Origin: Pseudooceanicola pacificus | GTDB taxonomy: Bacteria > Pseudomonadota > Alphaproteobacteria > Rhodobacterales > Rhodobacteraceae | NCBI RefSeq assembly: GCF_009789075.1 | Contig: NZ_WNXQ01000004.1 | Coordinates: 62,001-126,000, forward strand | Reading direction: 5' to 3' | DNA length: 64,000 nucleotides | Part shown: positions 35,943 through 51,423 of the stretch, one piece after another | How positions within the stretch are numbered: position 1 is the stretch's first letter | Layout of the letters: each line of letters starts with the position of its first letter | Position numbers and translations under genes: made by a program | Notes under the pieces: model-generated | The model's input: only the letters and a program-made list of their open reading frames with translations | The model's database searches: none | What the model was told of the DNA's origin: nothing

Positions 35943-36325
35943 GCGCAGGCAGGGCCACCCCGACCGGCACGCGGATGGATGCGAGGCCGCCATCCGCACC
36001 ACTGACCGTTCAATGATGATTGATTGAACTGAGATGGAAAATCCCTGCCTCTCGGCATGAGCCGGGCACATCACACGCGCGCATCCTCCGGTCTGGCGGC
36101 AAACCCGCGGCCGGTGAGGGTGCCCGTCGCGATCACCTTTCCGGCGGGCGCGAGCAGCCTGCCCTCGCACATGGTTTGGAACCGGCCCCGGTCGGCAGGT
36201 CGCACGCGCGGTCCGGCAGGGTATGCGGGGTCGACGGACCATCGCACGGATCGCCGAAACCGCCTTCGGCCCGGTCGAAGGATCAGGCCGGATTGTTTGT
36301 TTGCAGCGTCCGAAGCGTCACCCAA
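35943..36325. other. gene-free scar upstream of the CoA ligase
   Basis: No intact gene is visible. A leftward 87-codon frame (36071-36334) contains a stretch RFQTMCEGRLLAPAGKVIA that faintly recalls PaaI-type thioesterases. Nothing else supports it, so at most it is a remnant. The region looks like debris left by IS insertion and deletion. Confidence 0.4.
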
Positions 36326-36339
36326 GATTGACAATCAAA

Positions 36340-36362
36340 AACAATCATGAATGCTTGTTATG
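36340..36362 (+). promoter_or_regulatory. shared operator-like element, site A
   Basis: AACAATCATGAATGCTTGTT (36340-36359), followed by ATG, is a 16-of-20 symmetric dyad. Its core TCATGA-wTG-n-TTGTT recurs in front of the acyl-CoA dehydrogenase (40016-40039) and the TRAP operon (47242-47268), each pointing toward its gene. A TTGACA hexamer at 36328-36333 suggests the promoter is embedded here. It lies about 85 bp upstream of the chosen CoA ligase start. Confidence 0.65.
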
Positions 36363-36443
36363 AGCGTTGCGCCCCGGCGCGGCGAGGGAGACGCGTCCCG
36401 TGGCCAAGGGGTCGGGACCACCAGCCAGAAGCGAGTTGAGACC

Positions 36444-38042
36444 TTGACACCGACGCAATCCGCCAGCCCCGACCGGCTCTGTGACCTGATCCGGAATGTT
36501 CCCGCCGATGCGCCACTGTTCCTGCTGCCGGGGCAGGCTAATTACACCTACGGAACCCTGCGCGAAGAGAGCGCGCGGCTGGCGGCGGTGTTTCATGCCC
36601 GTGGCATCGGCAGGGGCGACACTGTCGCTCTCTGCCTCGGCAACCGGCCGGAATGGATGGTGACGGCCTTTGCCGCATGGCAGATCGGGGCGGCGATCCT
36701 CGCGCTGAACCCGCGCTTCGGCGCCAAGGAGATCGGCGATCTGATCCGCCGCACCGGTGCCCGGGCGCTGGTCCTGGCCCCCGGCTATCGCAACGGCGCG
36801 GTGGCCGACACCGTGTCCCGCGTCACGGACGAGAACCGCGCGAGCCTTGAGCTTGTGCTGTCGGCCGACGGCGCCTCGCCCGAGGGGCTGGTGCCCGGCA
36901 CCGAAACGCTCATCTTGTCGGACCTGCCCGACGCGCCCGCCGTCGAGGTCCTGGCCGAGCCGGGTGATGCCTGCCTCTACCTCGCCACCTCGGGAACGAC
37001 GAGCCTGCCCAAGATCGTGCGCCACATCCAGGACCGGGTCGTGCGCCACTGCCGCAACGCGGCCGCCGCGATCGGCTACGGCCCTGACAGCCGGACCGTT
37101 CTCGCCATTCCCTTCTGCGGCGGCTACGGCTTTGCGGTTGCGATGACCTCCATTGCCAGCGGCATTCCCATCGTCCTGCAGGATGCCTTCGACCCCGAAG
37201 AGGTCTCGCGCCAGATCAACGAGCTGGGCGTGACCCACGCCATGGGCACCAATGACATGCTTGACCTGCTGTTGAAGGTCACGCCGGGCGACCGGCCCTT
37301 CCCCGGGCTGAAGATGTTCGGTCACGCGAACTTCACCCCCGGCCTGACCGAGCTGCCCCCCGAGGCGGAGCGGCGTGGCGTGCTGATGCGCGGGTTCTAC
37401 GGTCTGTCCGAGACGCTCGCCTTTGTCGCGGCCCGGTCGGCCGATGCACCGCTGGCCGAACGGCAGGAGGGCGGCGGCACTCTGACCACGCCCGGAGCCC
37501 GTCTCAGGATCGCCGATCCCGAAACAGGTGCCGAACAGCCCGAGGGCGAGGCGGGCGAGGTGCAGATCCTTTCGCCCAACGTGATGGCGGGCTACCTGAA
37601 CGACCCCGCCCGGACCGCAGCCGCCTTTACCGGGGACGGCTATCTCCGCACCGGCGATCTCGGGGTGCGGGGGCCGGGCGACAGCTTCACCTTCCTGACC
37701 CGTATGAACGACATCCTGCGTATCGGCGGCTACCTTGTCGCGCCCGAGGAGATCGAGGCGGTGATCAAGGAAGACCCGGCCGTCGCACAGTGTCAGGTCG
37801 TCTCGGTCACCCTGAAACAGGGTCCCCGTCCCGTCGCCTTCATCGTGCCCGCCACGGCCGCGACGCCGGACCACGCGGCATTGACCGAACGGTGCAGGTC
37901 GCAGCTTGCGATCTACAAAGTTCCGGTCCGCATCTTCGAGATCGCCGAGATCCCCGTGGTCGACGGCCCCAATGGCCTGAAGGTCCGCAAGAACGAGCTG
38001 CGCGACATGGCCCGCGAGAGCCTGTCGGACGAGCTCGCCTGA
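36444..38042 (+). CDS. acyl-CoA ligase-like AMP-binding protein (TTG start)
   Basis: About 532 residues with an ANL fold: YTYGTLREESARLAAVF, P-loop-like LATSGTTSLPKIVRH, FYGLSETLAF, RTGDLG, RMNDILRIGGYLVAPEEIE and a late lysine (NGLKVRKNEL). The P-loop lacks the usual second glycine/lysine pattern (TSLPKI rather than TGxPKG), but the lysine is kept. In-frame ATGs at 36351 and 36360 fall inside the operator-like element, so I prefer TTG 36444, where homologues begin. It is a single-gene unit ending at a strong terminator. Confidence 0.85.
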   Translation: MTPTQSASPDRLCDLIRNVPADAPLFLLPGQANYTYGTLREESARLAAVFHARGIGRGDTVALCLGNRPEWMVTAFAAWQIGAAILALNPRFGAKEIGDLIRRTGARALVLAPGYRNGAVADTVSRVTDENRASLELVLSADGASPEGLVPGTETLILSDLPDAPAVEVLAEPGDACLYLATSGTTSLPKIVRHIQDRVVRHCRNAAAAIGYGPDSRTVLAIPFCGGYGFAVAMTSIASGIPIVLQDAFDPEEVSRQINELGVTHAMGTNDMLDLLLKVTPGDRPFPGLKMFGHANFTPGLTELPPEAERRGVLMRGFYGLSETLAFVAARSADAPLAERQEGGGTLTTPGARLRIADPETGAEQPEGEAGEVQILSPNVMAGYLNDPARTAAAFTGDGYLRTGDLGVRGPGDSFTFLTRMNDILRIGGYLVAPEEIEAVIKEDPAVAQCQVVSVTLKQGPRPVAFIVPATAATPDHAALTERCRSQLAIYKVPVRIFEIAEIPVVDGPNGLKVRKNELRDMARESLSDELA

Positions 38043-38051
38043 TCCGCGACC

Positions 38052-38082
38052 CAGGCCCCGGGGAGCGGCAGCCCGGGGCCTG
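38052..38082 (+). terminator. terminator hairpin after CoA ligase
   Basis: A perfect 11-bp stem CAGGCCCCGGG/CCCGGGGCCTG with a 9-base loop begins 10 bp after the ligase stop. The T-run is absent, as is common in such G+C-rich genomes. Confidence 0.75.
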
Positions 38083-38205
38083 CATCCGTCGATCAACGCC
38101 CGGTGCAGACGGGTGACCCGTTGCGGGCGCCAGGCCAAGGGCGAGACGCCGCGGGTACTCGGGGGCCCCGGCCCTGTGGGCATGGCGGCGAGAGATATCG
38201 GACGC

Positions 38206-38514
38206 TTGGGCCGCGAAATGCACCGCCTGCTGGCCCGAGCCGCACTTGCGGTCGATGGTGGTCGAGGGGACCGAGGCGGGAAAGCCAGCCGCCAGCAGCG
38301 CCCAGCGTCCGGGGGTGGCGGATTGCTCGCCGACCTGGCTGACGCAGCCGATCAGCACGTCGTCCACGCGGGCCGGGTCGATACCGTTGCGCTCGACCAG
38401 GGCCTTGAGGACCTGGCCCAGCAGGTCGGATGGGTGCAGGGCGCTCAGGCAGCCGCCCTGCTTGCCGCGCCCCATGGGCGTGCGCAGCGCGTCGACGATG
38501 ACGGGGTGTCTCAT
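38206..38514 (-). pseudogene. acetyl-CoA acetyltransferase (thiolase) N-terminal remnant
   Basis: From ATG 38514 (ACGGAG upstream) about 103 residues match thiolases well: PVIVDALRTPMGRGKQGG, DVLIGCVSQVGEQ and the nucleophile loop TTIDRKCGSGQQAVHFAAQ with Cys91. After AAQ the similarity stops abruptly, and the frame runs into unrelated sequence. The rest of the roughly 390-residue protein, including the GHP and CxG motifs, is gone. It is a clear 3' deletion. It once formed part of the leftward unit headed by the acyl-CoA dehydrogenase. Confidence 0.85.
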
Positions 38515-38631
38515 GGTGTTCTCCGTTTTTGGCCTGATCCGGATCGCGGGGCCAGTCGCCCCGCGCCCGGACCTCGAAGGATCAGACCGGCATCGCCGCC
38601 AGGCGCGGCGCATCGGCCGGGGTGTCGCATT

Positions 38632-38792
38632 CAGGTCCTGCACGGCCGTATGGGCGTCGTGGACCGCATCGCCGATCCGGCACACGTCGCGGCAGCCGCC
38701 GAGCCTCCGTACGTCGCGGCCATGATCGATCGGTCTGGCAGGGTCAGCGTACCGATGCGCCCGGGCCGGACCAGGGCGGGAAAGGCGACCAT
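38632..38792 (-). pseudogene. FadH/old-yellow-enzyme-type flavin oxidoreductase remnant
   Basis: ATG 38792 overlaps the acyl-CoA dehydrogenase stop (TGATG), and the first residues FPALVRPGRIGTLTLPDRSIMAAT match the N-terminus of NADH:flavin oxidoreductase/2,4-dienoyl-CoA reductase proteins. After about 26 residues a different frame continues as LGGCRDVCRIGDAVHDAHTA. This resembles the C-terminal IGD...HDxH segment of FadH-type enzymes. About 600 residues between appear deleted, leaving a frameshifted scar. Confidence 0.65.
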
Positions 38793-39961
38793 CAGGCGCC
38801 GCCTTTCATCAGGGACCGCCCGATGATCAGCTTCTGCACCTCGGACGCACCCTCGTAGATCCGCATCGGGCGGACATCGCGGTAGATCTGTTCGACGATC
38901 GAGCCATGCGCGACGCCAAGCGCCCCGAAGAGTTGCACCGCCTGATCCGCCACCCGCTGCGCCGCCTCGGTCGCGCCCAGCTTGGCCATCGCCACGGCAT
39001 CGGAATGACGGCCTTTGCGGGTGTCCCGCAGCCAGGCCGCGCGATAAACCAGAAGACTGGCCTGCTCGGTGTCGAGCGCCATATCGGCCAAGGCCGCCTG
39101 AACCGTCGGCATCTGGCCCATGGGCTGGCCGAAAAGATGCCGCTCCCGCATCCTTGCGACCGTCGCGCCGAGCGCGCGGCGGGCCATGCCGACCGCCGCC
39201 GCACCGACCGAGGTCCGGAAGATGTCGAAGGTCTTCATCGCGGCCTTGAACCCCTCGCCCGGCGTCCCGATCATGTTGCCTGCGGGGATCCGGCACTCCT
39301 TGAACGCCAACTCGCCGATGGGATGGGGCGCAATCATCCGCACCTCAGGCCCGACGGACAGGCCCGGCGTATCCGCATCGACCATGAAGGCCGACAGGCC
39401 GCGCGCGCCGGGCCCCTCGCCCGTACGGGCCACGACGATATAGTGATCCGCCGCCCCGGCGTTGGTGATCCACCGCTTTGCGCCGTTCAGCACGAAGACG
39501 TCGCCATCCCGCGTCGCCGTTGTCTCGAGCGCCGCCACATCCGAGCCGACATTGGGCTCTGTCACCGCGAAACCCGCGATCTTCTTCCCCGCCCGGCAAG
39601 GGCCCAGATAGGTCTGCGCCAACGCCGTCGAGCCCGACAGCCAGAGCGGCGCCGTCGCCAGCCCCTGCATGACGAAGACGCTGTCCACGAGCGCCGACCG
39701 GAACCCCAGGGCCTCGCGGATCAGGGACAACGCCCGCACGTCGACGCCGGGCGCGGGATCGTCCGCCTCTGGGACGACGTAGTCGAGGAACCCCCACTGC
39801 GCCATTTCGGCCGCCACCGCCCGGCATTCCTCGCGGAAATAAGGCGAGCCGTCCTCCGCCGGCTCCTTGGCCTGTGCCACCCAGTCCTCCAGCCGGGCGC
39901 CAAGCGCGCGGTGCCGCTCTTCGAAAAACGGCAGATCCGGCATCGTCCAGCCTTCGGTCAT
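38792..39961 (-). CDS. acyl-CoA dehydrogenase
   Basis: About 389 residues from ATG 39961 (GGGAGGA ribosome site); the frame back to 40024 would enter the operator-like element. FAD-contact segments are FAVTEPNVGSDVAALETTATRDGD and KRWITNAGAADHYIVVART. The C-terminal RIYEGASEVQKLIIGR keeps the MCAD-type catalytic glutamate (YEG). It should oxidise an acyl-CoA to the 2-enoyl-CoA, passing electrons to ETF. It leads a leftward unit whose next two genes are now remnants. Confidence 0.93.
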   Translation of the reverse strand: MTEGWTMPDLPFFEERHRALGARLEDWVAQAKEPAEDGSPYFREECRAVAAEMAQWGFLDYVVPEADDPAPGVDVRALSLIREALGFRSALVDSVFVMQGLATAPLWLSGSTALAQTYLGPCRAGKKIAGFAVTEPNVGSDVAALETTATRDGDVFVLNGAKRWITNAGAADHYIVVARTGEGPGARGLSAFMVDADTPGLSVGPEVRMIAPHPIGELAFKECRIPAGNMIGTPGEGFKAAMKTFDIFRTSVGAAAVGMARRALGATVARMRERHLFGQPMGQMPTVQAALADMALDTEQASLLVYRAAWLRDTRKGRHSDAVAMAKLGATEAAQRVADQAVQLFGALGVAHGSIVEQIYRDVRPMRIYEGASEVQKLIIGRSLMKGGA

Positions 39962-40015
39962 TGTGGTGGTCCTCCCTTGGGAGCGCCGCGGCCAAATCGG
40001 CGCGCAGTATGCCAT

Positions 40016-40039
40016 AACAAACAATCATGACTTATTTTT
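40016..40039 (-). promoter_or_regulatory. shared operator-like element, site B
   Basis: On the minus strand this reads AATAAG, then TCATGATTGTTTGTTATG. It matches site A over TCATGA-wTG-y-TTGTTATG with two differences. It lies 55 bp upstream of the acyl-CoA dehydrogenase start and 220 bp from the divergent TetR gene. Confidence 0.65.
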
Positions 40040-40259
40040 TTTGACAAGGCACGTCAAGCGCAGCCAAAATGCAGGAACGAAATCGGCCGGGTATCCGCCC
40101 CCCAGGCAAGGGGCTTTCCAGACATTCGCATTGAAGATCAAAGCCCACTTGCCCAGTGGGCGGGTTAGAAAGCAAAATGGCCGAACGACAGTCAATCGGG
40201 ACCAGATCCTTGGGGCGACGCGCACGCCCGCAACAGTCCGGACGAAGGAGACAAGAAAC

Positions 40260-40919
40260 GTGACCGAGAAAAAGGCGCCCCGCCGCGCCCGCGGCGGCAC
40301 CGGCGGCCCGGTGACCAAGCCGCAGCAGGAACGAAGTGCGGAAACGCACGAAAAGCTCATCAGGGCCGCCATCGCTGTGCTGGGCCAGCGCGGCTATGCC
40401 AATTTCTCGACCTCTATGGTCGCGGAAAAGGCCAAGGTGTCGCGCGGGGCGCTGCAATACCACTTTCAGACCCGCGATGACATTCTCGTCGCCGCCCGCG
40501 ATCATGTCGCGCGCGAACTGAACCTGCCGTGGACACCGGACGAGTTGCAGAAAAGCCCGGTGGACGAACGCATCCGGATGATCATCCGGCATTACTGGGC
40601 GGTGATCGGGTCCAAGAACTACATCGCCGCGCTGGAGATCCGACTGTACGAACGATTCAACCGCGGGATGCACAAGACACTTCTGGAACGCATGAACGTG
40701 CTGACCGAGGAGCGCAATATCGAATGGCAGGCGATCTTCTCGGACACCGGGATGCCCAAGACTCAACTGATCCCCTACCGGCTCTACATGCTCGACAGCC
40801 TGCGCGGCCTTGCCCTGAGGCGCATAGAACAGGGGACCAGCGTCGATGTCACGCCCCAGCTCGACATCCTGACGGAACTTCTGATTGATCGGCTCGACAC
40901 CAAAAACAATCAAGCTTGA
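40260..40919 (+). CDS. TetR family transcriptional regulator (GTG start)
   Basis: About 219 residues. Helix-turn-helix at about 50-71 (FSTSMVAEKAKVSRGALQYHFQTRDD) follows the helix-1 AAIAVLGQRGYANF. GTG 40260 has GAAGGAG upstream with 9-base spacing, and the frame from 39867 crosses the divergent promoter. It sits at the centre of the 36-50 kb acyl-CoA gene set and diverges from the acyl-CoA dehydrogenase. It is the natural candidate for binding the shared AACAA/TTGTT-type element. CoA-ligand TetR proteins such as FadR or PaaR offer a parallel. Confidence 0.92.
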   Translation: MTEKKAPRRARGGTGGPVTKPQQERSAETHEKLIRAAIAVLGQRGYANFSTSMVAEKAKVSRGALQYHFQTRDDILVAARDHVARELNLPWTPDELQKSPVDERIRMIIRHYWAVIGSKNYIAALEIRLYERFNRGMHKTLLERMNVLTEERNIEWQAIFSDTGMPKTQLIPYRLYMLDSLRGLALRRIEQGTSVDVTPQLDILTELLIDRLDTKNNQA

Positions 40920-41034
40920 CCGATTTATTATGCTGTGACAATTTCCTCTGCGCCAGGCGCGGGCGACGCCGGGTTGCGCATGTGCGCGCCCAGCCTGTCC
41001 CCGATCAGACCATGCCACGCAGGAGGAGAATGAT

Positions 41035-42078
41035 TTGGCACTGACCCACGCACAGCAATCCGCGAAAATTCTGCCAACCGCCGATCCCGACTGGCTGGCG
41101 CTGCATTCCGAAGAGATCCGCGAACCGGCCCTGCCGATCGTCGATCCGCATCACCACCTCTGGGACCTGCCCCGCGTGCCGCGCTACCTGCAGGAGGAAT
41201 TCTCGGCCGACCTGACCGCGGGACACAACGTCATCGCCACGGTCTTTGCCGAATGCACCGAGGGCTACCGCGAGGACGGGCCGGAACGGCTGAAACCGCT
41301 GGGCGAAACCGAATTCGTCGTCGCCTTTGCCCAGGACGCGGCGAACGGACCCGCCGCCGACCGCGGCGTCTGCCGCGGGATCATCGGCCGGGCCGACCTT
41401 CTCGAAGGTGCCTCGGTCGAGGAGGTCCTGCTGATGCACCGTGAGCTGGGCCAGGGCATGTGGCGCGGCATCCGCCAGTCCACCGCCTACGACGAGTCCG
41501 GCACGGTGCGCACCACCGCCCGCACGCCCCCGGCCGGTGTGCTGATGGATGCCAAGTTCCGCGAGGGCTTCGAAAGGCTCGTCGCCCTTGGCATGACCTT
41601 CGACAGCTGGGTCTACCACCCGCAACTCGGCGAAGTGGCCGACCTGGCGGCCACCTACCCCGACGCGAACATCATTCTCGACCACGTGGGCGGGCCGATC
41701 GGCGCCGGGGCCTACGAGGGCAAGCGCGACGAGGTCTTTGCCGTCTGGAAGAAGGGCATCCAGCAGGTCGCGGCCCAACCCAACGTCACCTGCAAGATCG
41801 GCGGCCTGGGCATGAAGCTCGGCGGCTTCGGCTTCGAGACCCTGCCCCGCCCTGCCCCCTCCGAAGAGCTCGCCCGCGCCTGGGGTCCCTATGTCGAGAC
41901 ATGCATCGAGGCCTTCGGGCCCGAACGCTGCATGTTCGAAAGCAACTTTCCCGTGGACATGATCACCTGCACCTACGCGACCCTCTGGAACGCCTACAAG
42001 CGCATCACGGAACACTACTCGGACAGCGAGAAGGCCGCGATGTATGCCGGGACAGCGCAGCGCGTCTATTCGGTCTGA
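41035..42078 (+). CDS. amidohydrolase-2 family metal-dependent hydrolase (TTG start)
   Basis: The 347-residue TIM-barrel protein has a full strand-1 metal site IVDPHHHLWDLP (about 34-45), WVYHPQL, LDHVGGPIG and the closing MFESNFPVD. ESNFP replaces GTDWP, as is usual in this subgroup near L-fuconolactonase/4-sulfomuconolactonase-like proteins. It probably hydrolyses a lactone or C-C/ester bond. TTG 41035 is preceded by AGGAGGAG with 8-base spacing; no ATG fits. It is followed after 13 bp by the CaiB-like gene. Contrast with the metal-site-deficient homologue at 9533. Confidence 0.87.
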   Translation: MALTHAQQSAKILPTADPDWLALHSEEIREPALPIVDPHHHLWDLPRVPRYLQEEFSADLTAGHNVIATVFAECTEGYREDGPERLKPLGETEFVVAFAQDAANGPAADRGVCRGIIGRADLLEGASVEEVLLMHRELGQGMWRGIRQSTAYDESGTVRTTARTPPAGVLMDAKFREGFERLVALGMTFDSWVYHPQLGEVADLAATYPDANIILDHVGGPIGAGAYEGKRDEVFAVWKKGIQQVAAQPNVTCKIGGLGMKLGGFGFETLPRPAPSEELARAWGPYVETCIEAFGPERCMFESNFPVDMITCTYATLWNAYKRITEHYSDSEKAAMYAGTAQRVYSV

Positions 42079-42091
42079 AGGGGGCACCGGC

Positions 42092-43234
42092 ATGCAGGGC
42101 CCCCTGACAGGACTGACCGTCATCGAGATGGCTGGGATCGGGCCGTGCCCCCTGGCCGGCCAGCTGATGGCCGACCTGGGCGCGGACGTGATCGTCATCG
42201 ACCGTGCGCCCGGGGGCGAACGGCCCAACGACGTGAACAACCGCAACAAGCGCAGCATCGCGGTGAACCTCAAGGCGCCGGGGGCTGCCGGGCTGGTGCT
42301 GGACCTCGTTGCCGGCGCGGACGTGCTGATCGAGGGCTTCCGCCCCGGCGTGATGGAGCGCCGGGGTCTGGGCCCCGATGTCTGCCTCGCGCGCAATGCC
42401 GGGCTGGTCTACGGGCGGATGACAGGCTGGGGTCAGGCCGGTCCGATGGCGCAGATGGCCGGGCACGACCTGAACTACGTCGCACAGACCGGACTGCTGC
42501 ACATGATGGGGAACGCCGACCGCCCCCCTGCACCGCCCCTGAACCTGGTGGCGGACTATGGCGGCGGCACGATGTTCCTGCTGCTCGGCGTGCTCTCGGC
42601 CCTCTGGGAGCGGTCCCGCAGCGGCCAGGGCCAGGTGATCGACGCGGCGATGATCGACGGGGTCGCGGCGCTTGGCGCGGTGTTCGCCGGGATGACCGCC
42701 ACCGGCATCTGGTGCCCGGGCCGCGAAGCCAACCTGCTCGACGGCGGCGCGCCCTATTACCGGGTCTACGAGACCCGCGATGGCGGGTTCGTCTCGGTCG
42801 GAGCGATCGAGCCGCAGTTCTTCGCGGAACTGGTTGAGAAGGCCGGCATTCCCTCGCAACTCGCCGCCCGGCGTGACGACCGCGACAGCTGGCCGGAACA
42901 GCGGGCCGCCTATGCCGCGATCTTCGCCGCCCGCAGCCGCGACGACTGGGCGGCGATCTTCAAAGGCTCCGACGCCTGCCTCGTCCCGGTCCTGACCCCG
43001 GACGAGGCGATGGCCCATCCCCACGCGACCGCCCGCGGATCCTATGTCGAGGTCGGCGGCCTCAGGCAGGCCGCTCCGGCCCCGAGGTTCGGACGCACGC
43101 CTGCACCCGCGCCGCGCGCACCCCGCCCGGCCGGGAGCGATGGCGCGCAGGTTCTCGACCGGTTCGGCATCGGGCCGGAGCGCCAGGCGCAGCTCCTCTC
43201 GGACGGGATCGTGATCCCGCCTGCCCCCTCCTGA
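42092..43234 (+). CDS. CaiB/BaiF family protein, alpha-methylacyl-CoA racemase-like
   Basis: About 380 residues from ATG 42092 (AAGGGGG upstream). The AMACR hallmarks are MTGWGQAGPMAQMAGHDLNYVAQTG (Asp126 in GHDLNY) and NRNKRSIAVNLK. VIDRAPGGERPN fits the CoA-binding edge. AMACR-type enzymes interconvert 2R- and 2S-methylacyl-CoA so that an S-specific acyl-CoA dehydrogenase can act; other family members transfer CoA between acids. The GHD motif makes racemase more likely. It forms a two-gene unit with the amidohydrolase. Confidence 0.87.
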   Translation: MQGPLTGLTVIEMAGIGPCPLAGQLMADLGADVIVIDRAPGGERPNDVNNRNKRSIAVNLKAPGAAGLVLDLVAGADVLIEGFRPGVMERRGLGPDVCLARNAGLVYGRMTGWGQAGPMAQMAGHDLNYVAQTGLLHMMGNADRPPAPPLNLVADYGGGTMFLLLGVLSALWERSRSGQGQVIDAAMIDGVAALGAVFAGMTATGIWCPGREANLLDGGAPYYRVYETRDGGFVSVGAIEPQFFAELVEKAGIPSQLAARRDDRDSWPEQRAAYAAIFAARSRDDWAAIFKGSDACLVPVLTPDEAMAHPHATARGSYVEVGGLRQAAPAPRFGRTPAPAPRAPRPAGSDGAQVLDRFGIGPERQAQLLSDGIVIPPAPS

Positions 43235-43261
43235 CGCATCCCGGATCGCGCCGGCAAGAAG

Positions 43262-43284
43262 GGCCCCGCCGTCAGGGCGGGGCC
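43262..43284 (+). terminator. terminator-like hairpin after CaiB-like gene
   Basis: A perfect 9-bp stem GGCCCCGCC/GGCGGGGCC with a GTCAG loop lies 27 bp after the CaiB-like stop, between convergent genes. Confidence 0.75.
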
Positions 43285-43320
43285 TGCATCGTTGCGCTGC
43301 CGTCAGCCACGGATGGCACG

Positions 43321-43352
43321 AAAAAGACCGGCCGCCCGAGAGCGACCGGCCG
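43321..43352 (-). terminator. Rho-independent terminator of the leftward SDR/TRAP unit
   Basis: Read on the minus strand, a CGGCCG/CGGCCG-armed hairpin around GTCGCTCTCGGG is followed by GTCTTTTT. It starts 25 bp after the SDR stop (43377) and has the T-run expected of an intrinsic terminator. Confidence 0.75.
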
Positions 43353-43376
43353 AATACGTCCCGGGATCGGTATCGG

Positions 43377-44090
43377 TCAGGACACCGAACCGACGCTCAA
43401 GCCGCCGCAGATATAGAGGTTCTGCCCAGTGACGAACCCTGCCCCTTCGGACAGGAAGAAGGCGATGGTGGCCGCGATCTCCTCGGGCTTGCCGACGCGT
43501 TTCATCGGCACCTTGGCCATGAACTTCTCGCGCGCCTCCGAGCCGACAGGCTGGAGAGAGGCGAACATCTCGGTCTCGAACGGGCCGGGAGAGATGACAT
43601 TCACGGTCACACCGTCCGGCGCCAGCTCCAGCGCCGCGGTCCGAGCGAGCCCGGTGAGCGCCGCCTTGGAGGCAGAATAGGTCGACCGCTCCGGCTTGCC
43701 CAGCGAGGCGCGGCTGCCGATCATCACCACCCGGCCGAACTGCGCCGTTCGCATGGCGGGGATCATCGCCTGCATCGCCCAGATCTGGGATTGCAGGTTG
43801 ACCCGGACCGTCTGGTCGAACCCCTCGTCGGTTACCGCTTCAAGGGCCTTGGCATCCACATAGCCGGCATTTGTCACCAGCCGTGTCGGCGCGAACTCTT
43901 GGGCGATCTCGGCAAATACGTCTTTGCACGACGGATCCGACAGGTCGACCTTCCGGAAGGTGCCGTCGAAATCCACCGGCTCTGTCCGGGCGAGGCCGAT
44001 CACGTGATAACCCTGTCCGGTGAGATACGCAGCGGTGGCGGCCCCGATGCCGCGACTGACCCCTGTCAGAACCACGCTTGGTTTGTCCAT
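43377..44090 (-). CDS. short-chain dehydrogenase/reductase (FabG-like)
   Basis: The 237-residue SDR has the NAD(P) motif TGVSRGIGAATAAYL (about 9-23), VTNAGYV in place of NNAG, the catalytic Ser in IGSRAS and YSASKAALTGLAR (Tyr-x-x-x-Lys). It closes with ISPGPFETEMF and GFVTGQNLYICGGL. It should reduce or oxidise a 3-hydroxyacyl-CoA or another alcohol. The ATG has AAGGAG upstream. It is the last gene of the leftward TRAP unit, ending at an intrinsic terminator. Confidence 0.91.
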   Translation of the reverse strand: MDKPSVVLTGVSRGIGAATAAYLTGQGYHVIGLARTEPVDFDGTFRKVDLSDPSCKDVFAEIAQEFAPTRLVTNAGYVDAKALEAVTDEGFDQTVRVNLQSQIWAMQAMIPAMRTAQFGRVVMIGSRASLGKPERSTYSASKAALTGLARTAALELAPDGVTVNVISPGPFETEMFASLQPVGSEAREKFMAKVPMKRVGKPEEIAATIAFFLSEGAGFVTGQNLYICGGLSVGSVS

Positions 44091-44119
44091 GTCCTACTCC
44101 TTGCTTGTTACTCTGGCCG

Positions 44120-45424
44120 TCACATTTGCGATGGCAGCCAGAGGCTGATTACCGGGAAAAAGATCAGGAGCGCGGTGATGACGATCTCTGCCGCCAGGAA
44201 CCACATCACGCCCTTGAAGATCGTTTCGACGGGGATGTTCGGGTCGACCACGCTTTTGACCACGTAGACGTTCAGGCCCACGGGTGGAGTCAGCAATCCG
44301 ATCTCGATCAGCTTGACCACCACGACGCCCATCCAGATCAGGTTGAGGTCCATCGCATCGTAGACCGGCAGCAGGATGGGCAGCGTCACCAACATCACCC
44401 CGATCGGGTCGAGGAACATCCCCAACACGAGGTAAAGCACCACGGTGAAGCCTATCACCATGAAGACGGTCACCTCGCCTTCGGTCACGATCCGGCCCAT
44501 CGTCTGGGGCAGGCCCGCCAGCACCAGGAACTTGGACAGCAGAGCGGCACCGACGGCGATGATCAGGATCGAGGCGGTGCTGTTCACGGCGTCGCGGATA
44601 CTGTCGCGTATCACCTGGAGGGTGAGCGTTCCCCTCAGCGCACAGATCAGCAGCGCGGCCACAGCACCGATGGACCCCGCTTCGGTCGCTGTCGTGAAGC
44701 CCGAATAGAGCAGCCCGATGACCGCCCCGATCAGCACCGGGATCGGCCAGACCGAAACGAAGGCCGACAGGCTTTCGCGCAGGGTCGGGCGGTACTCGGA
44801 CCGCGGTGCCAGCTCCGGGTTGATCAGGACCCGGATCACCACGGTCGCCCCATAGACAACCGCCGTCAGGATCCCGGGCAGGACACCGGCGATCAGCAAC
44901 TGGCCGATCGGAACCGCAGTGTACCAGCCGTAGATGATGAAGGCGACCGAGGGCGGGATCATCGCCCCGATCGTGCCAGCCGCGGCAACCGTGCCGGTGG
45001 CCAGCCCCGGGTGGTAGCCGCTCTTGAGCATCTCAGGCACCGCGATCCGCCCCATGGCCGCGGCTGTGGCGAGGCTTGACCCCGAAGCAGCCGCGAACAT
45101 GGCGGATGCAAAGTTGGCCGCGATGGCCAGCCCTCCGGGCAGCCGCCCGAACCAGATCCGGCAGGCCGCGAACAGCGATGTGGTCAGCCCGCCGCGAAAG
45201 GCGATGGTGCCCATCAGAAGGAACATCGGGATCGCCGAGAGCGACCAGTGCGCCGCAAAGTCATAGGGCAGCTTCCCCACGACGACCCAGATCGTGTCCA
45301 GCCCCCGAAGGGCCGCGATTCCACCCAAAGACGTCACGATCAGCGCGACGGCAATCGGGACACGGACGATCAGCAGGATGAGCAGCAGGCCAAGAAAGAC
45401 CAGGGAAATGGCGGTGCCGGACAT
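44120..45424 (-). CDS. dctM: TRAP transporter large permease, DctM-like
   Basis: A 434-residue, about 12-helix membrane protein with the DctM features: VPIAVALIVTSLGGIAAL, AAASGSSLATAAAMGRIAVPEML, GTVAAAGTIGAMIPPSVAFIIYG and LTPPVGLNVYVVKSV. It couples solute entry to the sodium gradient. It follows the small subunit after 46 bp. The ATG has GAAAGG upstream. Confidence 0.94.
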   Translation of the reverse strand: MSGTAISLVFLGLLLILLIVRVPIAVALIVTSLGGIAALRGLDTIWVVVGKLPYDFAAHWSLSAIPMFLLMGTIAFRGGLTTSLFAACRIWFGRLPGGLAIAANFASAMFAAASGSSLATAAAMGRIAVPEMLKSGYHPGLATGTVAAAGTIGAMIPPSVAFIIYGWYTAVPIGQLLIAGVLPGILTAVVYGATVVIRVLINPELAPRSEYRPTLRESLSAFVSVWPIPVLIGAVIGLLYSGFTTATEAGSIGAVAALLICALRGTLTLQVIRDSIRDAVNSTASILIIAVGAALLSKFLVLAGLPQTMGRIVTEGEVTVFMVIGFTVVLYLVLGMFLDPIGVMLVTLPILLPVYDAMDLNLIWMGVVVVKLIEIGLLTPPVGLNVYVVKSVVDPNIPVETIFKGVMWFLAAEIVITALLIFFPVISLWLPSQM

Positions 45425-45470
45425 GGGTACCTTTCAGGATTTCAGAGGTATGGCGTCGCGCAGGCGACCG

Positions 45471-46022
45471 TCAGTCGATCGCGCCGTGACGGGTTCCGTC
45501 ATCCTGCGGATCGGGCCCGACCAACCGGTCGCGCAGGGTCCGGACCAGGACGACCAGCGCCGCGAGGGCGGCGAAGGCAAACCCTGTGGCGGCGATCCAG
45601 CGCGTCGGCCAGATCAGCAGGTCGAAGAAGACGACATCCATGAACTCGCCCCGCAGGGTCTGTTTCCAGGCGTATTTGGCTGCGCTGACCGCGATCAGCC
45701 CCATCGCTCCAAACGCCAGCAGTCGGGCGAAGGCATCCATCACGCGACGCCGCGACGCCGACATTCGCGCGGTGAAGACTTCGACGAAGACCATGTCGCG
45801 CGACAGCTCGAGCGCTGCGAGCGGCAGGAAACTGACCGCCACCATGTAATAGCTCGAAACGATCTCCAGCGTGCCCGTCAACGGCTTGTTGAACAGCCCG
45901 CGCAGCAGCACGTCGAGAAAGATGTGCACCATCATCGCCACCATGCAGGCCCCGGCCACCGCGAAGGCGATGGCCGAGGCGATGCGCACGGCACTGGCAA
46001 AGGCTTTGCCGATCGTGTTCAT
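45471..46022 (-). CDS. dctQ: TRAP transporter small permease, DctQ-like
   Basis: About 183 residues with four hydrophobic helices, the usual DctQ topology (AFAVAGACMVAMMVHIFLDVLLRGLFNKPL, then LEIVSSYYMVAVSFLPLAAL). ATG 46022 has AGGAGATCGGC upstream; the 23 extra upstream codons overlap the binding-protein end and are rejected. It pairs with the DctM-like protein. Confidence 0.91.
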   Translation of the reverse strand: MNTIGKAFASAVRIASAIAFAVAGACMVAMMVHIFLDVLLRGLFNKPLTGTLEIVSSYYMVAVSFLPLAALELSRDMVFVEVFTARMSASRRRVMDAFARLLAFGAMGLIAVSAAKYAWKQTLRGEFMDVVFFDLLIWPTRWIAATGFAFAALAALVVLVRTLRDRLVGPDPQDDGTRHGAID

Positions 46023-46044
46023 GCCGATCTCCTGCAGCTCCGGA

Positions 46045-47148
46045 TCAGAAGCTGACCTTGCCGTAGATGTGCTCGCGCAGCAGCTCTTCATAGCGGGCCA
46101 GCTCGGGCGCGTCGGTGCCCAGCAGGTCGGTCCACTTGTCCAGGATTGTCAGGAAGGTGTCGAGGTTCTCGCCCGGCGACTCGACGCCTTGCTTGACGGC
46201 ATCCTCCAGGCTCACCTCGCGCGCGGCGACCTTGGCCGTGTCGATCGAAGCTTTCAGGTCTTCGCCTGCTTTGGTGTAGACTGTGCCGTTATCCAGCGCC
46301 TTCTTCTTCGAGGTCTCAGAGCTGTCGTAATAGGCCTGCACGTTCTGGGTAATGTAGCCGGGCATCTTGTCCAGGATCAGCGCGCGCTGATCCTCGGGCA
46401 GCTCGTCCCAGACGTCGCGGTTCACGACGAAGCTGTGGAAGCCGTGATAGGTGCCCATCGGGAGGTCGACGACCGTGCTCACCACGTCGTAGAGCCCATA
46501 GTCCTCCATCGCGCTTTCCGGTGCGAGTGCACAGTCGATCTGACCGCGTTGCATCCCCTCGTAGACGTCGTTGAAAGGGATGTTCACCGGCGCGGCACCC
46601 CAGGACACAACCAGACGGCTCCAGGGGCCTGCGGCCTTGATCTTCTTACCCTGCAGGTCCCCCACGGTCGAGATCGGGCCATTGCACAGCAGCTTGTAGG
46701 TCGAGGTCGACTGGAACCCCAGATTGGTCACCCCCATCTTGTCGAGGTCGGACTGGCAGCCGGGGCACTCCAGCATGGCGTATTCGGCCATCGCGGCCGC
46801 CATCACCCAGGAACTCTCGCCTTCGAGTGCCAGGCTGGAGGCGATCACCGTGTGCGGCAGGTCGCCCGGCACATAGACGTCGGTCACCAGACCGGCATCG
46901 ATCAGACCGTCACTGATGAACGACAGCGTCGCCTTGCCCGAGGCCACCGCGCCGCCGGACAGGACGTCGATGCCAAGGTCGCCTCCGGTCGCTGCGCTCA
47001 GGGCTTCGCCCAATGCTGCGGTGTTCTTCGTCACCTGGTGCGTGCCGGGTTGATAGGTGTTGTATTTCAGTTCCTTAGCCACGCCCGCGACGGGCATGAC
47101 GACCAACGCCGCGGCCAGGCCACAGATGGCGGAATTCACAAGAGTCAT
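46045..47148 (-). CDS. dctP: TRAP transporter periplasmic substrate-binding protein, DctP-like
   Basis: The 367-residue protein has a signal peptide (SAICGLAAALVVMPVAGVAKE) and the DctP fold: LKYNTYQPGTHQ, GLVTDVYVPGDLPHT, LQGKKIKAAGPWSRLVVSWGAAPVNIPFNDVYEGMQRGQIDCAL. The arginine that binds the carboxylate of acid ligands lies in this last block (WSRL). It implies an organic acid substrate. The ATG has AGGGAGGAAACCTG upstream. It leads the leftward dctPQM-SDR unit beneath operator-like site D. Confidence 0.93.
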   Translation of the reverse strand: MTLVNSAICGLAAALVVMPVAGVAKELKYNTYQPGTHQVTKNTAALGEALSAATGGDLGIDVLSGGAVASGKATLSFISDGLIDAGLVTDVYVPGDLPHTVIASSLALEGESSWVMAAAMAEYAMLECPGCQSDLDKMGVTNLGFQSTSTYKLLCNGPISTVGDLQGKKIKAAGPWSRLVVSWGAAPVNIPFNDVYEGMQRGQIDCALAPESAMEDYGLYDVVSTVVDLPMGTYHGFHSFVVNRDVWDELPEDQRALILDKMPGYITQNVQAYYDSSETSKKKALDNGTVYTKAGEDLKASIDTAKVAAREVSLEDAVKQGVESPGENLDTFLTILDKWTDLLGTDAPELARYEELLREHIYGKVSF

Positions 47149-47241
47149 CAGGTTTCCTCCCTTTCATCCGGGCAGACATTGCCGTCGCACCGGGTGATGT
47201 TCCTTTGCAGCCGGTCCGCCCTCCAGCGGGATTCTGGTTGC

Positions 47242-47268
47242 CAAAACAATCATTCATGAATTATTTGT
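47242..47268 (-). promoter_or_regulatory. shared operator-like element, site D
   Basis: On the minus strand AATAAT precedes TCATGAATGATTGTTTTG, matching site A over TCATGAATG-n-TTGTT-w-TG. The centre TTCATGAA is a perfect palindrome. It lies about 94 bp upstream of the TRAP binding-protein start and about 128 bp from the divergent dehydrogenase, so one element could control both. Confidence 0.65.
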
Positions 47269-47395
47269 ATCGTCAATCTAAAAGCACCCGGACACCTCGG
47301 TCCGCCCGACTCGGGTACAGTCTGGGGCTTGCGTCCGAAGAAGATGAATCATTGACTTCAAACGTGCCGGATCGTCGGGGAAGAAAGGAACACTG

Positions 47396-48433
47396 ATGCA
47401 GGACATCGTTCTGGACATGGGCGGAAAACTCTTCGCGGAACATGCGGAAGCCGCGTTCCATGCTCACCCCAAGGATACCACGGAAGGCGCGGCCAGCTGG
47501 ATGCCCGGGCTCTGGGCGCAGGTCGGGGAACTGGGCCTGCCGCTGGCGCTCCTGTCCGAGGAGCATGGCGGTTTCGACCTGCCGGCCGCAACCGCCATGG
47601 GCCTGGTCCGCCTGGCCGCCGCGCATGCGGTTCCCCTGCCCCTGGGTGAGACGATGATCGCCAACTGGCTGCTGGCTCATGCCGGACTGCCGCTGGCCGA
47701 AGGCCCCGCAACCCTGGCACTGGGCCCGGAGCTTGACGGCGACAGGCTGAACGGCCCGGCCGCCCGCGTCGCCTATGGCCGCCATGCCGCGACCGTCGTG
47801 CTGCTGGCCGGTGACAGGCTGGTCCGCACCGACGCAGGCACCGTGACCGAAGCCTCACACAATGTCGCCGGAGAGCCGCGTGATACGCTTGTCTTCGCGG
47901 GCGAAGTCACCTCGGCCCCGGCTCCCGTCAATAAGCAGAACTTTCGCCTTCTGGGCGCGCTGTTGCGGGCGCAGGGCATGGCCGGAGCGCTGGAGGCGGC
48001 CCTGTCGATGACCGTGGACCACGCCAACAGCCGCGAACAGTTCGGGCGACCGCTGGGCAAGTTCCAGGCCATCCAGCAGAGCCTCGCAGTCATGGCAACC
48101 AACGTGGCTGCGGCCGGCGCCGCGGCCGTAATGGCGACTGACTTGCTCTCCGACGCCCTGGCGGGTACCGGGGCCTTCGCCACCGCCGCGATGGCGGCCA
48201 AAATCCGTACCGGAGAAGCCGCTGGCATCGGAGCGTCTATTGCCCACCAGACGCATGGGGCCATCGGCTTCAGCCAGGAATACCGCCTGCACCCCCTGAC
48301 ACGCCGCTTGTGGGCCTGGCGCGACGAATGGGGCCGCGAGGCAGAATGGTGCGAAACCCTCGGCACCGAGGTCTGCGCCCGGGGGCCTGATGGCTTCTGG
48401 CCCTTCCTCACAAGCACCGGATCCGCTGCATGA
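47396..48433 (+). CDS. acyl-CoA dehydrogenase-like subunit (short type)
   Basis: At 345 residues this is shorter than canonical acyl-CoA dehydrogenases. The N-terminal helical domain (MPGLWAQVGELGLPLALLSEEHGGFDLP) and the C-terminal helical bundle (SREQFGRPLGKFQAIQQSLAVMA, HGAIGFSQEYRLH) are clear. The middle beta domain is much reduced and the C-terminal catalytic YEGT segment is absent. Such short subunits pair with a full-length partner in heterotetrameric dehydrogenases of steroid side-chain and related pathways. Its last four bases overlap the next dehydrogenase start (ATGA). Confidence 0.88.
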   Translation: MQDIVLDMGGKLFAEHAEAAFHAHPKDTTEGAASWMPGLWAQVGELGLPLALLSEEHGGFDLPAATAMGLVRLAAAHAVPLPLGETMIANWLLAHAGLPLAEGPATLALGPELDGDRLNGPAARVAYGRHAATVVLLAGDRLVRTDAGTVTEASHNVAGEPRDTLVFAGEVTSAPAPVNKQNFRLLGALLRAQGMAGALEAALSMTVDHANSREQFGRPLGKFQAIQQSLAVMATNVAAAGAAAVMATDLLSDALAGTGAFATAAMAAKIRTGEAAGIGASIAHQTHGAIGFSQEYRLHPLTRRLWAWRDEWGREAEWCETLGTEVCARGPDGFWPFLTSTGSAA

Positions 48434-49581
48434 GCGATTTCCTGACCTTCCCCGCCCCGCCCGCCCTGCCCGGCCAGGACGATCTGCGCCGGGACGTCCG
48501 CGCCTTCCTGGCCGAAACGCTCGGACCGGATTTCGGAGCCACGGACCAGGCCCGAAGCTGGAACGGCCACGATCCCGAATTTTCGCGCAAGCTGGGTCGC
48601 CAGGGCTGGCTCGGGATGACCTGGCCTACCGAATACGGCGGCGGCAACCGCTCGCCCCTCGAACGCTATGTCGTGATCGAGGAGCTTCTCGCCGCCGGCG
48701 CGCCGGTGGCCGCCCACTGGATCGCCGATCGCCAGTCCGGCCCCCTGTTGCTGCGATTCGGCTCCGAGGCGCAGCGCCGCGACATCCTCCCCCGCATCGC
48801 GGCCGGTGAATGCTACTTCTGCATCGGGATGAGCGAGGCGGGCAGCGGGTCCGATCTGGCCGCCGCAAAGACACGGGCGCGCAGGGATGGCGACGAATGG
48901 GTGCTGAACGGCACCAAGATCTGGACCACTTACGCCCACCACGCCCATTACATGATCGTCTTCTGCCGGACCGGCCACAGCGAAGACCGCCACGGCGGGA
49001 CCAGCCAGTTGCTGGTCGATCTCTCCACCCCCGGCATCACCATCAGCCCGATCCTGGACCTTGCCGGAGAGCACCACCTGAACGAGGTGCAATTCGACAA
49101 CGTCCGCCTGCCTGCCACGGCGCTTCTGGGGCAGGAGGGCCAGGGCTGGGATCAGGTGATGGGCGAACTGGCCTTCGAACGCTCGGGGCCGGACCGTTTC
49201 CTGTCCTCCTTCGCCCTGCTAAACGACCTGGTTCGCGTTCTGGGCACCGCGCCCGATCAGGCCTCGGCCCGCGCTGTGGGGCGGATGGCGGCGCATCTCA
49301 TGGTATTGCGCCACATGTCGCGCTCGGTCGCGGGCAAGCTGGCCCGCGAAGAAAACCCGACCCTTCAGGCCACGATCGTCAAGGACCTCGGTGCCCTGAT
49401 CGAACAGGAGATCCCCGAGATCGCGCGCACCCTCGTCCCGGTCGAACCGGTGCCCGGGCCGCAGAACGACTTTGCCTGCGCACTGGCCCGCACGCTGATG
49501 TCCGCGCCCAGCTTCTCGCTGCGCGGCGGCACCCGGGAAATCCTGCGCGGGATCATCGCCCGTGGCCTTGGCCTGCGCTGA
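48430..49581 (+). CDS. acyl-CoA dehydrogenase (long partner subunit)
   Basis: A 383-residue protein with GMSEAGSGSDLAAAKTRARRDGDEW, NGTKIWTTYAHHAHYMIVFCRT, and a C-terminal SLRGGTREILRGIIARGLGLR in place of YEGT. The glutamate in LAFERSG, at the helix-G position used by isovaleryl-CoA-type enzymes, may be the catalytic base. It is coupled to the preceding short subunit by a 4-bp overlap and probably forms a complex with it. It is followed 32 bp later by an enoyl-CoA hydratase, the next beta-oxidation step. Confidence 0.91.
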   Translation: MSDFLTFPAPPALPGQDDLRRDVRAFLAETLGPDFGATDQARSWNGHDPEFSRKLGRQGWLGMTWPTEYGGGNRSPLERYVVIEELLAAGAPVAAHWIADRQSGPLLLRFGSEAQRRDILPRIAAGECYFCIGMSEAGSGSDLAAAKTRARRDGDEWVLNGTKIWTTYAHHAHYMIVFCRTGHSEDRHGGTSQLLVDLSTPGITISPILDLAGEHHLNEVQFDNVRLPATALLGQEGQGWDQVMGELAFERSGPDRFLSSFALLNDLVRVLGTAPDQASARAVGRMAAHLMVLRHMSRSVAGKLAREENPTLQATIVKDLGALIEQEIPEIARTLVPVEPVPGPQNDFACALARTLMSAPSFSLRGGTREILRGIIARGLGLR

Positions 49582-49613
49582 ACCGCATTCCATTTTTTTC
49601 AGAAAGGACCCAA

Positions 49614-50414
49614 ATGACCCTCGTACTGAGCGAAACCGACGAGCAAGGCATCGTCACGATGACCCTGAACGACCCGGAGACCCGCAACGCGATCTCCGAT
49701 CTTCCGATGATCGAGGCGCTGGAAGAGGCGGTTCATGCCGCCGAGGCCGACCCCCGGTCGCGCGTGATCATCCTGACCGGCGCGGGCAAGGCATTCTCGT
49801 CCGGCGGAAACATCAAGAAGATGGGCGCAGGCGGCGGGCTGAACGACCCGCTGCCCGCCAAGACCCGCGCCAACTACCGCACCGGCATCCAGCGCCTGCC
49901 GCAGATGTTCGAAGCGATGGAGCTTCCCGTCGTCTGTGCCGTGAACGGCGCGGCCATCGGCGCCGGCTGCGACCTGACGCTGATGTGCGACGTGCGCATC
50001 GCGGGAGAGCACGCCAAGTTCGCCGAAAGCTTCGTCAAGCTGGGGATCGTGCCCGGCGACGGCGGCGCCTGGCTCCTGCCCCGTGTGGTCGGGTGGTCCC
50101 GGGCCTGCGAGATGGCCCTGACCGGCGATCTCGTCGATGCGGAAGAGGCAAAGGCAATCGGCCTGGTGTCGCGCGTCGTCCCCCAGGGCAAGCTGATGGA
50201 GACCGCCCGCGACGTTGCCCTGCGGATCGCAGCCAACCCGACCCATGCCGTCCGGCTGACCAAGCGGCTGCTGCGCAAGGCCGGTCAACAGAGCTTGTCC
50301 GAAATCCTCGAAACCTCGGCCGCCTACCAGGCGCTGGCCCATGCCACCGCCGACCACGAAGAGGCCGTCGCCGCCATGCTGGAAAAACGCCCGCCCGTGT
50401 TCAAGGGCGTCTGA
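49614..50414 (+). CDS. enoyl-CoA hydratase/isomerase family protein
   Basis: About 266 residues from ATG 49614 (AGAAAGGACCCAA upstream). Crotonase motifs are NDPETRNAIS, FSSGGNIKKMG, VNGAAIGAGCDLTLMCDVRIA and SFVKLGIVPGDGGAWLLPR. The GGNIKKM and GDGG features match proteins annotated as crotonase/EchA-like with a flexible helix. The position directly after an acyl-CoA dehydrogenase pair fits hydration of the enoyl-CoA they make. It is followed by a decayed ligase fragment. Confidence 0.9.
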   Translation: MTLVLSETDEQGIVTMTLNDPETRNAISDLPMIEALEEAVHAAEADPRSRVIILTGAGKAFSSGGNIKKMGAGGGLNDPLPAKTRANYRTGIQRLPQMFEAMELPVVCAVNGAAIGAGCDLTLMCDVRIAGEHAKFAESFVKLGIVPGDGGAWLLPRVVGWSRACEMALTGDLVDAEEAKAIGLVSRVVPQGKLMETARDVALRIAANPTHAVRLTKRLLRKAGQQSLSEILETSAAYQALAHATADHEEAVAAMLEKRPPVFKGV

Positions 50415-51381: not shown

Positions 51382-51423
51382 GCGCGTCGCTGTAGCATGG
51401 GGGCCCGCAAGGAGGAAAACCAG

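Follow-up and report, generated by a model that had tools for sequence, protein, structure and literature searches.

The stretch analysed here comprises 64,000 nucleotides (nt) of Pseudooceanicola pacificus DNA beginning at position 62001 of contig 17 (hereafter the window, whose coordinates are used throughout). It carries a catabolic gene cluster arranged around a gene for a TetR-family regulator of 219 amino acids (40260-40919, plus strand), together with a repeated dyad element that lies in front of several of the cluster's transcription units. On one side of tetR are an acyl-coenzyme A (CoA) ligase of the AMP-binding type (36444-38042, plus) and an acyl-CoA dehydrogenase (38792-39961, minus). 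On the other side are an amidohydrolase (PF04909; 41035-42078, plus), a CaiB/BaiF family III CoA-transferase (42044-43234, plus) and, on the minus strand, a unit for a tripartite ATP-independent periplasmic (TRAP) importer, which encodes the binding protein DctP (46045-47148), the small membrane subunit DctQ (45471-46091), the large membrane subunit DctM (44120-45424) and, as its final gene, a short-chain dehydrogenase (SDR; 43377-44090). Our analysis points to the element as the operator of the TetR-family protein.

Results

A sequence-only reading of the window had noticed a common element in the promoter zones of the CoA ligase, the acyl-CoA dehydrogenase and the TRAP importer. In a pattern scan, the 18-mer TCATGAWTGNTTGTTWTG was found as exact matches at 36345-36362 (plus), 40013-40030 (minus) and 47242-47259 (minus), which bears out the three copies, with the earlier coordinates off by 0-3 bases. 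Allowing three mismatches adds two further window matches, at 36333-36350 (the opposite strand of the first site) and 40902-40919; these five compare with a mean of 0.12 in dinucleotide shuffles, none of 100 of which reached five. The genome-wide scan that the same reading had proposed as a check found the motif not to be frequent elsewhere: the P. pacificus genome (22 contigs totalling 3,888,276 bases, or 3.89 Mb, and 66.85% complete) has only three exact matches, every one in the cluster, and seven matches with up to three mismatches, five in the cluster and two elsewhere, against one in a reversed control.

The dyad form of the element is a 20-base-pair (bp) palindrome, AACAATCATNNATGATTGTT, with half-sites AACAATCAT. 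With up to three mismatches this palindrome occurs in the P. pacificus genome solely at window positions 36340-36359, 40020-40039 and 47245-47264, and the reversed control gave none. Candidate operator 1 (AACAATCATGAATGCTTGTT, 36340-36359) lies in the CoA ligase promoter and has one mismatch. Candidate operator 2 (AACAATCATGACTTATTTTT, 40020-40039), in the minus-strand promoter of the acyl-CoA dehydrogenase, has three mismatches in total and one perfect half-site, while candidate operator 4 (AACAATCATTCATGAATTAT, 47245-47264), located between the TRAP unit and a divergent pair of acyl-CoA dehydrogenase genes, has three, or two if W (A or T) is accepted at positions 5 and 16. A weaker candidate, operator 3 (AACAATCAAGCTTGACCGAT, 40905-40924), the weaker relative pointed out in the earlier reading, has five mismatches and overlaps the tetR stop codon. 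Because the motif was derived from the same sites, these counts are post hoc, and the independent support comes from conservation in other genomes.

A genome contig search with the TetR protein found one close relative, 76% identical and with the cluster around it, in Antarcticimicrobium sediminis; the second locus in that search was a Phycisphaeraceae contig matching at 27% over 49 residues. In the A. sediminis region C4:128000-162636, counterparts 72-90% identical were found for 11 of 13 window genes; nothing there matched the thiolase at 51397, and the second ligase at 52581 reached just 34%. All eight of the palindromes found in this genome with up to three mismatches fall within C4:138679-160855, a stretch of about 22 kb inside this cluster; the reversed control gave none. 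Sites common to both species precede the CoA ligase (C4:155738-155757, one mismatch), the acyl-CoA dehydrogenase, the amidohydrolase (C4:145168-145187, three mismatches, again overlapping the tetR stop) and the TRAP importer, and in the aligned intergenic regions the best-kept blocks are a TTGAC (-35) box and the palindrome. The dyad symmetry and promoter location proposed from the sequence are thus backed by orthologous sites at the same four promoters, the weaker fourth site is backed by its conservation, and the proposal of a regulon of one cluster agrees with the restriction of sites with up to three mismatches to the cluster in both genomes. A. sediminis has extra sites before an enoyl-CoA hydratase, a second CoA ligase, and DctQ and DctP of a second TRAP importer; the hydratase site is the ideal palindrome, with zero mismatches. 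This second importer (DctQ, DctM, DctP; C4:158825-162018), with its two candidate operators, has no separate counterpart in the window, the search having covered the window and not the rest of the P. pacificus genome.

Comparison of the two species also qualifies the motif itself. The dyad and the 18-mer share a register at operators 1 and 4. At operator 2, in front of the acyl-CoA dehydrogenase gene, the perfect half-site (40020-40028) is offset by 4 nt, so that the exact 18-mer match there is partly coincidence; in A. sediminis the trailing TTGTTATG of the 18-mer is altered at this site and the half-site is kept. The motif is common to the three promoters, as had been proposed, but one of its three matches owes something to luck. 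The element had also been described as always oriented toward its gene; since the ideal site is symmetric, we read this as a promoter-register effect, for which the spacing from the -35 box and the better-kept downstream half-site are the better explanation.

We then compared the positions of the sites with those of promoter elements. In both species the CoA ligase and TRAP promoters have a putative -35 box, TTGACA (36328-36333, plus) or TTGACG (47271-47276, minus), whose start precedes the operator by 12 nt; for TTGACT at the A. sediminis hydratase site this distance is 13 nt. A second arrangement, shared by the two species at the amidohydrolase promoter and present also at the second-ligase site of A. 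sediminis, has TTGACC or TTGACT at +11, within the operator; in the window this TTGACC (40916-40921), the -35 box of a TTGACC-17-CAATTT promoter, is covered by operator 3. For the acyl-CoA dehydrogenase site the boxes are TTGACG at 18 nt, in both species, and TTGTCA at 8 nt, in the window only; the sites of the second A. sediminis TRAP importer, with TCGACA at 36 nt and TTGGCA at 24 nt as their sole 5-of-6 matches, fall outside these registers. Several other sites have additional 5-of-6 matches to the -35 box at differing distances. In a promoter consensus scan of 36000-47500, which found three promoter-like pairs where 1.3 were expected, TTGACG of the TRAP promoter was paired with AATGAT (spacer 16) inside operator 4. 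The consensus scan alone also gives a promoter-like TTGACA-18-CAAAAT (40041-40070, plus) that faces tetR, its -35-like box adjoining operator 2.

The similar distance to TTGAC in several promoters, and its presence in the conserved blocks, would fit a motif that is itself a promoter element, the -35/-10 of a particular sigma factor, with accidental symmetry. We regard this as having hardly any probability: there are just three exact copies genome-wide, one A. sediminis site is a perfect palindrome, and at the amidohydrolase promoter the motif lies over the -35 box and not downstream of it. As a sole cause, a promoter element was rejected given the restriction of the motif to the cluster and the perfect palindrome of the ideal site.

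The positions of the sites suit repression by covering of the promoter. Activator sites usually lie upstream of the -35 box, and both arrangements cover the core promoter, where a bound protein would hinder polymerase. These points tell against a TetR that binds the same palindrome mainly as an activator, or that acts as a dual regulator at some promoters. Such a reading draws on the overlap of operator 3 with a -35 box, rather than a spacer, and on the existence of TetR proteins that activate, of which AtrA is the example given in the excerpt of PMC3511530 used here; we consider it improbable.

The TetR protein has an N-terminal TetR_N helix-turn-helix (HTH) domain (PF00440, E 1.6e-12, 47.4 bits versus a cutoff of 24) and falls below the cutoff for all 15 NCBIfam families listed. 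PsrA was rejected as an identity, the Vibrio PsrA model NF053516 giving 19.1 bits against 300 and covering only residues 26-78 of the HTH region, as were BetI, ScbR, FadR (Bacillus), AcuR and RutR, all far below their cutoffs (the best, ScbR, at 51.2 of 150 bits over residues 23-115). The predicted structure is all helices with a mean predicted local distance difference test score (pLDDT) of 55.5; the score is good in the HTH region alone and drops below 50 over much of the C-terminal part. A PDB sequence search returned 16 distinct TetR-type sequences, mostly matching in the HTH region. Among the PDB matches, 3whb, a 'fatty acid metabolism regulator protein' (E 5.1e-6), was too weak to name a ligand.

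Close relatives of this protein are rare. At the given thresholds, with misses possible because of the number of candidates scored per genome, it was found in two of 295 genomes of the family (E 1e-30 or better, best 10 candidates) and two of 22 of the genus (1e-15, up to all candidates), P. pacificus included in both, and in one of 390 of the order (1e-25, best seven), P. pacificus itself. One of three genomes of the A. sediminis genus has it, and a plasmid search gave 105 records, all below 60% identity and at 28-35% among the 20 matches listed. The palindrome itself, with up to two mismatches, occurs in nine of 394 family genomes, P. pacificus included, at one place each, against three of 394 in the reversed control. 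In the 3-kb surroundings of the eight other palindromes no relative of the window TetR was found, and the 13 window genes used as queries gave a single SDR match at 27%; with neither a TetR relative nor cluster genes nearby, these lone palindromes look like background.

More distant relatives proved informative. Among 385 genomes of the class, six gave a match to a profile of three TetRs at an E-value of 1e-30 or better (P. pacificus included; best eight candidates per genome, misses possible), and we retrieved the surroundings in the five others (G859, G1005, G951, G833 and G788) and in G315. In G859, G1005, G951 and G833, which belong to two other families (f41 and f148), the best palindrome of 18 kb lies directly upstream of tetR, although the TetRs are just about 29-37% identical to that of the window. 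These sites have 3-4 mismatches to the A form and define a T form, AACATTCATNNATGAATGTT. The consensus was then fixed as AACAWTCATNNATGAWTGTT from these four relatives, and the families of G1005 (f41) and G859 (f148) were searched, giving 21 TetR matches in 20 of 25 f41 genomes and two in two of seven f148 genomes. In f41 the palindrome (0-3 mismatches) stands upstream of tetR in 19 of 21 cases, or in 17 of 19, eight of them perfect, once the two matches that had shaped the consensus are removed; when the bases were shuffled within 50-base blocks, 60 times per locus, no shuffle equalled the real sequence at any of the 19. Both f148 matches carry the palindrome, yet both had shaped the consensus. 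An acyl-CoA dehydrogenase gene diverges from tetR across the site at 11 of the 19 f41 loci and at both f148 loci; at the other eight f41 loci it is not adjacent or was not seen. Scanned whole, G859 has two places elsewhere with up to three mismatches against none in the reversed control. The earlier proposal that the local TetR is the binder is thus strengthened by the same class of palindrome upstream of its distant relatives.

The recognition helix is alike in all these relatives, a further point for the operator reading: it is SRGALQYHF in the three Rhodobacteraceae TetRs, TRGA[I/V]QYHF in f41 and f148 where it was read, and TRGALQHHF in G788. Tentatively, and at somewhat less than even odds, these proteins could form an undescribed alphaproteobacterial TetR subfamily that controls acyl-CoA catabolic genes through the operator class AACAWTCATNNATGAWTGTT, in which positions 5 and 16 (A/T in Rhodobacteraceae, T/A in f41 and f148) track a helix change from SRGAL to TRGAI, specificity having shifted in small steps. 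The coupling of operator and helix is not clean, since the site of G788, whose helix has TRGAL, is unclear, and TRGAV occurs in one f41 protein.

Other features of the locus complete the picture. The longest-ORF start of the CoA ligase, at 36351, would lie inside operator 1 and is unlikely, because homology begins at about 36435-36444, which suggests a start near 36444. Nearby, 36278-36297 (five mismatches) is probably a decayed operator, judging by its correspondence in position to the A. sediminis site C4:155800-155819; that site faces the second CoA ligase, whose orthologue was not seen in the window (best match 34%). The acyl-CoA dehydrogenase is 87% identical to its A. sediminis counterpart. 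Next to it, a truncated thiolase (38041-38529, minus) has 163 residues that correspond to the start of the A. sediminis thiolase (67%), the remainder being missing. The acyl-CoA dehydrogenase of A. sediminis is followed by a flavoenzyme related to BaiCD/FadH (below the family cutoffs) and by the thiolase, and this part of the cluster looks deleted in the window. Diverging from the TRAP unit is an acyl-CoA dehydrogenase pair (47396-48433 and 48430-49581) followed by an enoyl-CoA hydratase (49614-50414), a plus-strand unit (47396-50414) that is conserved in A. sediminis and possibly co-regulated.

Discussion

We place a probability of roughly 0.88 on the reading that the TetR-family protein encoded at 40260-40919 has this element as its operator, at sites that overlap promoters, and represses a single catabolic regulon. 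A TetR dimer would bind the 20-bp palindrome where it overlaps core promoters. In front of the CoA ligase gene and the TRAP unit it would lie across the spacer and -10 region, and in front of the amidohydrolase gene across the -35 box itself; the cluster would thereby be kept silent. Release of the repressor, and with it joint induction of uptake and catabolism, would come from a pathway intermediate, for which the likeliest candidate is an acyl-CoA product of the cluster's own ligase or CoA-transferase. On the best account of the sites, the regulon includes at least the CoA ligase, acyl-CoA dehydrogenase, amidohydrolase-CaiB and TRAP-SDR units; tetR itself is probably controlled, and perhaps also the two acyl-CoA dehydrogenase genes transcribed away from the TRAP unit. 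Computation gives the sites themselves, shows them to be confined to the cluster and conserved at orthologous promoters, and finds the operator class again upstream of TetR relatives; from these results we infer binding, repression rather than activation, and autoregulation. The acyl-CoA inducer is a guess drawn from the cluster's enzymes and from analogous systems such as BadR.

A number of observations weigh against this reading. Three of the four window sites have only one good half, the cluster promoters have poor -10 boxes, and with the W pattern the eight A. sediminis sites are found again but the reversed control gives one. Among the f41 matches, two of 21 are without the palindrome (one gene is truncated by the end of its contig, the other is a weaker paralogue), and the 17 positives represent few independent lineages, since all come from one genus. 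The two f41 genomes scanned whole each have four other places with up to three mismatches away from tetR, against two in the reversed control, so that specificity in these two genomes is confined to near-perfect sites, and neither shows evidence of a multi-promoter regulon. In G788 the best candidate of 10 kb does lie upstream of tetR but has five mismatches, and in G315, which belongs to the window's own genus and has a 33% TetR match over residues 10-145, the best site in 18 kb has seven mismatches and is unconvincing. Finally, G225 is one close relative without a clear operator: it keeps a TetR that is 67-69% identical (67% over the whole protein), while its whole genome has no palindrome with up to three mismatches (reversed control, one). 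The best sites near its tetR have five and six mismatches, the counterpart of operator 3 has six, and the sequence upstream of tetR gives no alignment with operator 2. Of the amidohydrolase, just a 77-residue remnant is present in the 33 kb covered around this locus (C19:372532-373532). The G225 locus may have decayed, or the cluster may have been lost or rearranged.

The retention of TetR without clear sites in G225 would also fit a different regulator, encoded elsewhere, that binds the palindrome while tetR is a bystander, the more so as the link between TetR and its sites is drawn here from sequence. Against this, the same palindrome class stands upstream of distant TetR relatives in other families and other gene contexts, and since a bystander is not expected to carry the palindrome along with it, we take this alternative to be very improbable. 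Under the operator reading, a repeat spotted by eye becomes a defined operator candidate to which a named protein, a testable set of targets and a family of relatives can be attached. This reading leaves general ideas of gene regulation unchanged; it offers a handle on a catabolic cluster in Rhodobacteraceae and a small comparative system for TetR operator specificity.

Searches of the open-access literature by motif strings and topic found no description of the palindrome as an operator among the matches listed, and a search by organism name returned no papers; the circuit is of an ordinary kind with an apparently undescribed operator sequence. In the excerpts used here of the papers cited below, it resembles TetR/TetO and local TetR-family repressors (PMC3511530) in its TetR-type HTH, its palindromic candidate operators in promoters beside the regulator's own gene and its proposed local regulon, but differs from TetR/TetO in that the presumed ligand is a metabolite and not a drug, and in that at least three promoters are involved, not one divergent pair. 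With PsrA, FadP and LiuQ, which are TetR-family regulators of fatty-acid and branched-chain acyl-CoA catabolism (PMC5343134), it shares the control, here proposed, of acyl-CoA degradation genes by a TetR-family protein; among the regulators studied there, LiuQ and FadP occur only in betaproteobacteria. PA3973 of Pseudomonas aeruginosa (PMC9736018) is likewise a TetR adjoining an acyl-CoA dehydrogenase gene, with palindromes around a predicted -10 box, and its neighbour genes rise without it. Its 14-bp motif, SAAGRNMTGAACG / TGAATCCGGATTCA, the one motif compared, differs from AACAATCATNNATGATTGTT, and unlike the present cluster it has about 300 chromatin immunoprecipitation (ChIP) sites and a proposed stress role with an AidB homologue. 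BadR, which acts in cyclohexane carboxylate catabolism (PMC9795900), offers a parallel as a local repressor with operators over predicted -35 boxes and an acyl-CoA effector, cyclohexane carboxyl-CoA (CHC-CoA), the corresponding mechanism in the window being proposed; BadR differs in belonging to the MarR family and in its operator, CAATNNATTG.

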